A stretch of DNA of 38,455 bases from Pseudomonadota bacterium (GTDB lineage: Bacteria > Pseudomonadota > Gammaproteobacteria > SURF-13): contig JAQBXX010000012.1 in assembly GCA_027624315.1 (NCBI GenBank), forward strand, positions 1 to 38,455, written 5' to 3'. The translations under genes were made by a program, and so were the position numbers. Under the pieces are notes generated by a model. It searched no databases and had not been told where the DNA came from. It saw only the letters and a program-made list of their open reading frames with translations. This document shows, one piece after another, positions 2,200 to 16,523 of the stretch (the first letter of the stretch is position 1; every line of letters starts with the position of its first letter).

Positions 2200-3335
2200 C
2201 AGGCGCGATGCTTGCGGAGGCGTGGCATGCGATGGGTGCGAACCGGCTGCGCACGTTTCTCACCATGCTCGGCATGGTGATCGGCGTCGGCGCCGTCATC
2301 CTGATGCTGGCCATCGGCCGCGGCGCGCAGTTTCAGGTGGAGCAGTCCATCGCGTCGATGGGCAGCAATTTGTTCATCATCCTGTCGGGCTCCTCGACCG
2401 CGGGCGGCGTGCGGCTGGGAGGCGGCGCGGCGCCCACCCTTACCCTGGGTGACGCGCAGGCCATCGCGGAGCTGCCCACCATCGCGGCGGTCGCGCCCAC
2501 CGTGCCCGGCGGCGCGCAGATCGTGTACGGCCAAAACAACTGGGGCACGCAGGTGCTGGGCACGACGCCGAGCTATCTCGATGTGCGCGACTGGCGCATC
2601 GAAGCCGGATATCCCTTCACCGACTCGGACGTGCGCTCCGCCACGCGTGTAGCGCTCGTGGGGCAGACCGTCGCAAAGAATCTGTTCGGCGAAGAGGAGC
2701 CGGTCGGCAAGACGATACGTATCAAGCAGAGCCCGTACCTTGTCATCGGGCTGCTCGCGGCGAAAGGGCAGAGCCTGGACGGACGTGATCAGGACGACAC
2801 CATCCTCGTTCCGGTGACCACCGCGCAACGCAAACTCTTCGGCACCCAGTTTCAGGGCACCGTGCGCTTCATCATGGCACAGGCCACCGCGCCGGAGGCC
2901 ATGGCGGGCACGGAACGCGCCATCAACCAGTTGCTGCGCCAGCGCCACCGCCTGCAGGAAGGCACGGACAGCGATTTCACCGTGCGAAATCTCGCCGCGG
3001 TCGCCAACACCGCGGCGGAAACCGCCCGCATCATGTCGCTCATGCTCGGCGCCATCGGCATCCGCATGGCCGTCGGCGCACGCCAGCGCGACATCCTGCT
3101 GCAATTCCTGCTCGAAGCCATCATCATTTCCGTCGTCGGCTGCCTGGTGGGAGTGATACTCGGCGTAGGCGGCGCGGTGCTGGCAAATAAAATCACCGGG
3201 ACCGCCGTAGTCATCACCCTGAGCTCCGTGGTCATGGCGTTCCTCGTCGCCGCTGGCGTAGGCGTCTTCTTCGGATTCTATCCCGCCAACAAGGCCGCCC
3301 GCCTGGAACCCATTGATGCGCTGCGATACCAGTAA
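2196..3335 (+). CDS. MacB-like ABC transporter permease (FtsX/MacB_PCD family), apparently with an internal deletion
   Basis: '[39 protein letters not shown]' N-terminus and '[25 protein letters not shown]...[17 protein letters not shown]' C-terminus; ATGA overlap with the preceding ORF; within ORF 996..3335. Confidence 0.85.
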
Positions 3336-3476: not shown

Positions 3477-3608
3477 ATCCGGAAAACAAGAATATTTTAT
3501 GCGCTGCTGAGCTAACGTCTTGATAGCTTGAAAGATGACACGCGAGGGCGCAAAGTGCCGGAATACAAGGCCGCATTTAGGCGGCATATTTCTAGTTATG
3601 CGTAAAAA

Positions 3609-3983
3609 ATGATCACTATCGCAGTAATCTGGTGCCTCATAGGCTTTCTGTTCGGCATACCAAGGTCGAAGGCGAGATATTTTGATGCTCTTGAAGAAAG
3701 AAAATCTTATAAGTCTGTTCTTGGCTGGTGGGATTATTTCGAGATTTGGGTCATTACATTATTTGAACAAGCCAAATGGACAATATTAGGGGTGCTTTCC
3801 GGAATTTCGTACATTGCTTGGTTTTTGCTCGAATTGGCCATAGCAAACAAAAAGGAACTGGAGAAGCCAAGTAATCTCGGTGCAATTGGCTTTAGTATAT
3901 TGGTCTTCATTCTTGGCGCAATCGCGCTCGAAAAAGCAAATGAAGAAAAAATTACACGCAGAAGAAAAGCGCATAACAAGTAG
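3609..3983 (+). CDS. small hypothetical membrane protein, candidate integron cassette ORF
   Basis: 124-aa ORF, AT-richer than surroundings, hydrophobic segments at both ends; stop codon lies inside the attC-like hairpin. Confidence 0.6.
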   Translation: MITIAVIWCLIGFLFGIPRSKARYFDALEERKSYKSVLGWWDYFEIWVITLFEQAKWTILGVLSGISYIAWFLLELAIANKKELEKPSNLGAIGFSILVFILGAIALEKANEEKITRRRKAHNK

Positions 3984-4042
3984 CTTCACCGGACAAAATA
4001 CTCGCTGCGCTCGCATTTTTCCGGTGAGCTAGCGCGGTAGGG
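3971..4042 (+). other. candidate attC recombination site of an orphan integron gene cassette
   Basis: GCATAAC box complementary to GTTATGC at 3595-3601; imperfect hairpin tagcTtcaccggaCaaaat...attttt ccggtgagcta with two same-strand unpaired bases and an unpaired central loop; R' box appears degenerate (gcgcGGTAGGGC). Confidence 0.5.
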
Positions 4043-4119
4043 CGCAATAACCAAAGGGCATTGCGCCGCATGTGTCTTAGGCAACTATCCGGTGCAATGC
4101 GCTCCGTTTATTGCACCCC
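4036..4119. repeat. dispersed inverted repeat (ggtagggcgcaataaccaaagggcattgcgcc / ggtgcaatgcgctccgtttattgcacccc)
   Basis: arms are near-perfect reverse complements. Confidence 0.7.
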
Positions 4120-4161
4120 ACGGCCTATTGCCAAATATGTACATTGTGCATATACTTATGC

Positions 4162-4428
4162 ATGCGCTTTCAATTCGACCCGCGAAAATCCGCTTCAAAT
4201 CTCAAGAAACACGGGGTTTCGTTCGCCGATGCTGAAGGCGTGTTCTTTGATCCGCTGTCCATACACCAGGCAGATTCCGGCGCGGAAGACGAAGAAAGGT
4301 TCGTTGCCGTCGGAATGGGAAGCTCCGGGCAGATTCTGGTGGTAGTGTATACGCTGCGCGGCGACGACATCAGGCTGATTTCCGCGCGCCATGCTACTCA
4401 TCGAGAGGCTATAACCTATGAAACGTGA
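4162..4428 (+). CDS. brnT: BrnT family toxin
   Basis: 'FQFDPRKSASNLKKHGVSFADAEGVFFDP...VVVYTLRGDDIRLISARHATHREAITYE' typical BrnT; overlaps the antitoxin gene. Confidence 0.85.
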   Translation: MRFQFDPRKSASNLKKHGVSFADAEGVFFDPLSIHQADSGAEDEERFVAVGMGSSGQILVVVYTLRGDDIRLISARHATHREAITYET

Positions 4429-4720
4429 ATATGATTTTTCCAAGGGTAAACGCGGCGCGCTGCTTCCGGCAAAGGGCAAAACGCGCATTACCATTTTCAT
4501 CGACGACGCAGTGCTTTCATTATTTCGGGCGCGCGCGGAAAAGGCAGGGACAGGTTATCAAACCATGATGAACGAGGCCCTTCGGGCATTCTTGTCTTCT
4601 CGTGCAGAGGAGCCGCTTACCGAGTCGGTGCTTCGCCAGGTCATTCGCGAAGAAGTACCAAAGCTGTCCCGGCCAGCAACACGCTCAGGCGGACGCGGCA
4701 AACAGCGCCGCGCCGCTTAG
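4418..4720 (+). CDS. brnA: BrnA family antitoxin
   Basis: 'KGKTRITIFIDDAVLSLFRARAEKAGTGYQTMMNEALRAFL' RHH-like BrnA pattern; directly downstream of brnT. Confidence 0.8.
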   Translation: MKREYDFSKGKRGALLPAKGKTRITIFIDDAVLSLFRARAEKAGTGYQTMMNEALRAFLSSRAEEPLTESVLRQVIREEVPKLSRPATRSGGRGKQRRAA

Positions 4721-4746
4721 CTAACAGAAACCTGGGGTCGAGTCTT

Positions 4747-4880: not shown

Positions 4881-5126
4881 ATGTCCGGCGCACGGCTCAC
4901 CAGTAAAGGGCAAACCACTATCCCGAAAGAAGTAAGGGATTTTCTTCACCTTGAAGCGGGCGACAGGGTGGACTTCATTTTGCTGGATGACGGCAGGGTG
5001 TTGTTGCAGCCTGCTACCAGAGATGTATCCAGTCTCAGGGGTATGTTGCATCGCAAGGGTATGAAGAGCGTTTCCGTTGAGCAGATGAATGCAGCGATAA
5101 GAAAGCGTGCGGCACGCAATACATGA
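4881..5126 (+). CDS. AbrB/MazE-type (SpoVT-AbrB domain) antitoxin
   Basis: 'ARLTSKGQTTIPKEVRDFLHLEAGDRVDFILLDDGRVLLQP'. Confidence 0.88.
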   Translation: MSGARLTSKGQTTIPKEVRDFLHLEAGDRVDFILLDDGRVLLQPATRDVSSLRGMLHRKGMKSVSVEQMNAAIRKRAARNT

Positions 5127-5515
5127 AGGGGCTCGACACCAATATTTTGGTGCGCTACCTGACTCAAGATGAGCCCGATCAGGCGCTGCGCGCTGCGCGC
5201 TTCATCGAGAAGGCGAGTGCAGATGACCGGCTGTTGATTAACAGTGTTGTGCTTTGTGAGTTGGTGTGGGTATTGGAATCCGCCTATGATTTCCATAAGG
5301 AAATCATTGTTGATGTCATCGAGAAAATATTTGCGACCAGCCAATTTGAAATCGAAGACAAGAGCACCGCATGGCTAGCCTTTAATGACTATAAACGACA
5401 TAAAGCCGACTTCGCCGATTGTTTGATCGGCAGGGAAAACTCTGCTTTGGGATGCAGCGAAACAATGACTTTCGATAAAAGGCTTAAGGGGCTGGAGGGA
5501 TTCAAGCTGCTGTAG
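5123..5515 (+). CDS. PIN-domain toxin (VapC-like ribonuclease)
   Basis: 'MKGLDTNILVRYLTQDEPDQ...DFADCLIGRENSALGCSETMTFDKRLK' PIN acidic motifs; 4-bp overlap with antitoxin gene. Confidence 0.9.
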   Translation: MKGLDTNILVRYLTQDEPDQALRAARFIEKASADDRLLINSVVLCELVWVLESAYDFHKEIIVDVIEKIFATSQFEIEDKSTAWLAFNDYKRHKADFADCLIGRENSALGCSETMTFDKRLKGLEGFKLL

Positions 5516-16471: not shown

Positions 16472-16523
16472 GAATAGAATAAAGGGGACGCTACCCTGAA
16501 TAGAATAAAGGGGACGCTACCCT
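16472..16523. repeat. perfect 26-bp tandem duplication (gaatagaataaaggggacgctaccct x2)
   Basis: 16472-16497 and 16498-16523 identical. Confidence 0.9.

Follow-up and report, generated by a model that had tools for sequence, protein, structure and literature searches.

Integron attC sites without an integrase, lone or clustered, are described as CALINs, and a CALIN with a single attC can be true (IntegronFinder, PMC9024848). For Xanthomonas, the available excerpts of one report describe an ancestral integron with progressive loss of integrase activity and with off-locus CALINs (PMC12444791). According to further excerpts, IntI inserts cassettes at non-classical chromosomal sites, termed attG (Loot et al. 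2024 Nat Microbiol; PMC11023631, PMC12444791, PMC12901181), and the cassettes of mobile integrons that carry a delta-attI upstream of the ORF are reported not to be excisable (PMC12901181).

Here, we analysed a 38,455-nucleotide stretch of DNA (hereafter, the window) from a 1.43-Mb, 53-contig draft genome of a gammaproteobacterium (G000). The small gene in its macB-lepA intergenic region very probably represents a single integron gene cassette that was inserted by IntI at an attI-like site and became stranded after the loss of the integrase. This interpretation is based on the observed boxes, the geometry of the attC site, the attI-like left border, an integrase remnant and other attC sites in the genome. 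An earlier sequence-only reading had proposed an orphan integron-like cassette at this position, and the boxes, a covariance-model match of the attC and the fold of the circular form all support that proposal.

The cassette and its attC site

GCATAAC (3971-3977) is the exact reverse complement (7/7 pairs) of GTTATGC (3595-3601), as the sequence-only reading had described for its start and end boxes, and the two boxes enclose an ORF at a distance of 376 bases from each other. Based on this R'/R'' complementarity and on the circular fold described below, the cassette in its inserted form (TTATGC ... attC ... G) was assigned to 3596-4036 on the plus strand. It is filled by an ORF of 124 aa (3609-3983, plus strand), the stop codon of which falls within the attC; the ORF is indeed AT-richer than its surroundings, with a G+C content of 40.5% vs 60.8% for the whole window. 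The product is probably a small membrane protein, as judged from three hydrophobic segments in the translation. Its top Pfam match is far under the cut-off, and no relatives were detected in plasmids, viral contigs, GTDB genomes or 369 genomes of the class. No copy of the cassette was found at any other place in these collections either, and mobility is therefore without comparative support. No promoter-like site was detected within the cassette or just upstream; expression, if any, probably occurs via read-through or an undetected promoter.

The attC site (3971-4042, plus strand) consists of R'' (GCATAAC, 3971-3977), L'' (TTCACCGG, 3985-3992), a variable loop, L' (CCGGTGA, 4021-4027) and a degenerate R' position (GGTAGGG, 4036-4042). 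L'' and L' are in register with those of the attCs of relatives, and L' is identical to that of two undisputed attCs of the same genome (G000:C36:11032 and G000:C30:22126). Folding of the bottom strand, a check proposed by the sequence-only reading, yielded a hairpin at 3981-4031 (z = -2.75), and one of 200 shuffled sequences folded equally well. The fold, the presence of unpaired bases on one strand and an unpaired central spacer thus agreed with that reading, whereas the exact bases had to be corrected: the unpaired bases (EHBs) are at attC positions 12 and 20, corresponding to T3985/T3986 and C3994. Position 12 is left unpaired in 25 of 26 family attCs. The hairpin by itself is weak evidence, and the case draws its strength from the combination of features. 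When the cassette was closed into its circular form (3971-4036 joined to 3596-3601), all 72 bases of the attC folded and the R box paired in 7/7 positions, with a folding energy of -36.1 kcal/mol vs a shuffle mean of -17.1; none of 500 shuffles was equally good.

The search with attC covariance models, also proposed by the sequence-only reading, was carried out with models trained on the attCs of same-family relatives, the window site being left out. The final model (R3, 26 sites) matched 3971-4042 with 21.5 bits (E 0.0013), along with a second segment of the 38-kb window at 4685-4722 (22.5 bits), and the next match scored 11.7 bits. The first model had given 18.7 bits for 3971-4042 (E 0.059 over 155 kb). 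In an earlier model structure position 12 was paired, and unpairing it in R3 lifted the window score from 19.0 to 21.5 bits; this change was adopted after the window score was known, on the grounds that 25/26 training sites pair only that way. Because family attCs score 30-75 bits, the score of the window attC is real but modest, and most of the loss arises at the 3' core, where the GTTRRRY consensus is absent. A strict motif that combines R'' and L'' in register (AAC-N7-TYNASSGGAC) occurs once in the window vs 0.01 expected, a figure that is descriptive, not blind, because the motif was written to fit the window site and the family attCs. A looser composite of boxes and L-box cannot distinguish the site from a random match, about 0.6 such matches being expected per window. 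A search of the region against Rfam yielded only miRNA/snoRNA matches, all under the gathering scores. The sequence-only reading had also considered that the hairpin might be only a terminator. For 3971-4042 this was rejected on the strength of the strict motif, the covariance model and the circular fold, and since no relatives of the ORF were found, there is no other place in which a terminator could be conserved with it.

The left border

The left border of the cassette resembles an attI site, a feature that the sequence-only reading had missed. This attI-like site (3569-3601, plus strand) consists of a stem-loop (GCCGC-ATTTAG-GCGGC) followed by ATATTTCTA and the core GTTATGC; the crossover is predicted after G3595. 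We prepared a profile from 12 attI sites, derived from the intI-bearing relatives and from this genome's own attI. The 26 bases before G3595 scored 14.4 bits on it (chance 1-6e-6 by base composition), and a profile of non-family attIs alone gave a chance of 2e-6 for the same border. With the core included, the site scored 21.1 bits and the genome's own attI 34.4 bits, and among the 1758 GTT sites that 78 kb of its sequence contain, the next best scored 5.5 bits. The stem-loop was also scored as a terminator.

On a profile of attC 3' ends, by contrast with its attI score of +14.4, the border scored -16.2. The first cassettes in the intact integrons of relatives score +18 to +29 for attI (these attIs belong to the training set of the profile) and about -12 for attC, and the inner cassettes show the reverse. 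Therefore, the window cassette has the appearance of one in first position, next to an attI or an attI-like site. That the border might instead close an attC lying before the cassette was rejected, given the attC-end score and the lack of a complementary L'' upstream.

Nothing about the cassette is unusual except its attI-like border. The border might mean that the locus is the relic of a second integron platform between macB and lepA, with a true attI and its first cassette, from which intI has been wholly deleted. This interpretation, which keeps the cassette reading and differs only in the origin of the left border, is possible but doubtful. The score of the border is indeed in the range of true attIs, the cassette occupies the first position, and at two loci of the sister species G002 (L110:1709 and L112:799), one of which is the ancestral mnmG locus, attI-like sites head arrays that lack intI. 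However, the approximately 65 bases between the macB-side homology to the congener G001 and the attI-like site contain no trace of intI or a promoter, the similarity to attI ends approximately 26 bases from the core, and no second full intI was found in any same-family relative. Overall, a secondary site is a more likely target than a second true attI.

In the preferred reading, in which the cassette was captured at a secondary site and later stranded, IntI would have recombined the folded bottom-strand attC of the cassette with the attI-like site, in double-stranded form, between macB and lepA. A cut after G3595 would have linked the attI-like half of the host with the TTATGC end of the cassette, whose last G (4036) would have been joined to host sequence that is now a MITE-like repeat, so that no GTTRRRY core would be present on the 3' side. 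The lineage would later have lost the integrase, leaving the last 50 residues of IntI beside mnmG together with an attI and one decayed cassette, and with the integrase lost the cassette would have been stranded. IntI presumably carried out the insertion.

Similar attI-like sites head off-locus sequence at G002 L112:799, where attCs are present, and perhaps at G001 L049:180, where no attC was found. We tentatively propose that the IntI of this lineage put off-integron cassettes preferentially at mimics of its own attI, which comprise a terminator-like stem-loop and TNTTTCTA followed by G. If this is true, dispersed arrays would be headed by attI look-alikes, and likeness to attI would guide off-site cassette capture, unlike the loosely defined attG reported for E. 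coli. From the border follows a testable hypothesis on how the places of off-site insertion are selected.

Integron history, right border and neighbouring genes

The sequence-only reading had noted that the window contains no integrase, and our search of the genome for intI and attCs, which it had recommended, extended this observation: no intact IntI over the curated cut-off was found in the draft genome, although one may lie in a gap between the contigs. A C-terminal fragment of IntI was identified at G000:C34:17630-17785 (L035 9630-9790, plus strand), with 46 of 50 residues (92%) identical to the IntI of G001. It lies just upstream of mnmG, as does the complete intI of G001; the ancestral integron locus is thus seen broken beside mnmG. 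A piece of a DUF4381-like gene occupies the former place of the rest of intI on contig C34. Near the fragment, an attI is kept on the minus strand of L035 (core 8776-8770), as is one cassette (8776-7947, minus strand), which we take to be GIY-YIG-like and the attC of which has decayed (R'' ACCTAGC). As for the parts of a complete integron, the profile points to a putative attI at the window locus; in place of a functional intI beside it there is only the C-terminal fragment on another contig.

Other attCs in this genome are located on contigs C36 (two), C30 and C34. The two on C36 (L116 5033-5857) are clear and flank a RelE/HigA-like toxin-antitoxin (TA) pair downstream of an ntrC-type gene; at the matching locus, G002 contains a different array. 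AGC stands in place of AAC in three decayed R'' boxes of this genome (L035 7944, L035 15739 and window 4671). Full-length IntI is present in 4 of 5 same-family relatives (490-511 bits), with real arrays. In G002, intI has been wholly lost and attI and cassettes are kept beside mnmG, and lone or clustered attCs occur in both this genome and the sister species.

At the right border, a MITE-like dispersed inverted repeat (GTAGGGCGCAATAACC ... TTATTGCACCCCAC, 4037-4120, strand unassigned) occupies the 3' core. It has matches in G000, G001 and G002, six of them in this genome including the window and more in the congeners. The overlap between 3' core and dispersed repeat that the sequence-only reading had reported was thus borne out, as was the degeneracy of the core. 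The register given in that reading (GTAGGGC, with the crossover at G4037) is less likely, because attC-end profiling favours a crossover at G4036 (GGTAGGG), which makes GTAGGGCGCAATAACC, where the repeat starts, the host half. Either the cassette may have been inserted next to the repeat, or the repeat may have been inserted into the core. Since the core GGTAGGG overlaps this repeat, it is plausible that the cassette is now immobile. A copy of the repeat in G001 (L041, G001:C2:294147-294236) lies directly after an attC-like half site (GGTTAAC-AAGGCGC-TCCAGCG). Targeting of attC by MITE insertion was considered and rejected: this one G001 copy fits, whereas the surroundings of the other copies yielded no recognisable attC.

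The presence or absence of the cassette in relatives, a further comparison suggested by the sequence-only reading, gave a partial answer: the cassette is absent from both congeners, and the flanks are too rearranged to provide a clean empty site. The macB-lepA gap of G001 contains a MITE copy and lacks both the cassette and the 64 bases to its left. G001 is not claimed as an empty site, since other MITE copies are at least as close to that of the window as the one in G001 and the right flanks are not homologous; the two copies may be independent. The gap of G002 contains a different insert, presumably a DUF3800-like ORF, and no window cassette.

Other differences from G002 were observed on the macB side. 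The window is without approximately 1.9 kb (at 1900-2000) that contains the end of a TolC-like gene, a partner gene and the start of an ABC ATPase gene, and ORF 718-2199 consists of a TolC-like N-terminus fused to an ABC-ATPase C-terminus. A further 78 bp is missing inside the MacB-like permease (3040-3070), and the efflux operon looks broken. Elsewhere in the window, a 26-base unit (GAATAGAATAAAGGGGACGCTACCCT) is present twice in perfect tandem at 16472-16523.

The two TA modules that the sequence-only reading had placed directly after the cassette were both recognised by Pfam. The first consists of brnT (4162-4428, plus strand; BrnT_toxin, E 8e-28) and brnA (4418-4720, plus strand; BrnA_antitoxin, E 2e-10), and the second (4881-5515, plus strand) of a MazE/AbrB-type antitoxin (4881-5126) and a PIN-domain toxin (5123-5515). 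A possible decayed attC was detected by the covariance model over the 3' end of brnA (4671-4735, plus strand), with R'' GGCCAGC, not xxxxAAC, L'' TCAGGCGGAC, L' GCCGCTTA and no R'. Its R3 match at 4685-4722 has an E value of 0.0007, its G002 ortholog (L017 7702-7765) scored 27.3 bits (E 0.0002), and the AGC for AAC in its R'' is the same change as in both decayed attCs on C34. The brnA 3' end may thus represent a decayed attC, and BrnTA an old TA cassette.

On this basis, the locus could be a cluster of two cassettes, in which a BrnTA cassette comes after the 124-aa cassette and the MITE was inserted later at the intervening 3' core. The attC-like brnA end, shared with G002, and the occurrence of a different TA pair between two attCs on C36 are in line with such a cluster. 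We nevertheless consider it unlikely, because R'' has AGC, not AAC, no R' box precedes brnT, a G+C-rich hairpin in a coding C-terminus can mimic an L-box, and G002 has BrnTA without the window cassette or the MITE. The remark in the sequence-only reading that TA systems are common cassette cargo was partly upheld, by the pair on C36 and the L-box in brnA, and not for BrnTA as a cassette.

It is highly improbable that the locus has no integron history and is simply a small gene whose 7-base boxes arose by chance and whose hairpin is like that of an intrinsic terminator. In favour of this view, the hairpin by itself is only modestly unusual, GTTRRRY is absent from the 3' core, the attI-like stem-loop scores as a terminator and the looser composite is common by chance. 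However, the strict motif, the covariance match, the attI-like border and the shared L-box would have to fall together in register by coincidence, and the integron history of the genome is independently shown.

Comparison with known systems

The cassette in the window was most likely stranded at a sequence that resembles an integration site, which makes the locus a clear example of a phenomenon already known and not a new kind of element. It provides a well-resolved natural case, from an uncultured lineage, of a cassette left behind in a genome with a dead integron. The three congeners represent three stages: a complete integron in G001, attI and cassettes without intI in G002, and, in this genome, scattered cassettes together with a remaining piece of IntI.

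The locus resembles CALINs in having an attC-bearing cassette with no integrase nearby and a degraded integron in the genome. It differs from them in its attI-like left border, in a 3' core occupied by a MITE-like repeat and in the number of attCs, one clear site and, in brnA, one possible decayed site, where the default threshold is at least two. With Xanthomonas it shares an ancestral locus, the loss of the integrase and the dispersal of cassettes to other chromosomal loci; the excerpts available on the Xanthomonas CALINs contain no mention of attI-like sequences heading dispersed arrays (PMC12444791). Sites of the attG type are said, in the excerpts available, to diverge from both attI and attC, whereas the left half of the window site resembles the attI of its lineage; as for a recoverable empty site, neither G001 nor G002 contains a clean one. 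Delta-attI cassettes, as far as the excerpts describe them, likewise have a truncated attI sequence beside the cassette (PMC12901181), but they belong to class 1/2 integrons with an active IntI, whereas the window cassette is chromosomal and has no integrase. The sedentary chromosomal integrons of G001, G003, G004 and G005, unlike the window locus, keep a full-length intI beside attI, and they share with it the same attI-cassette-attC order and the same site sequences.
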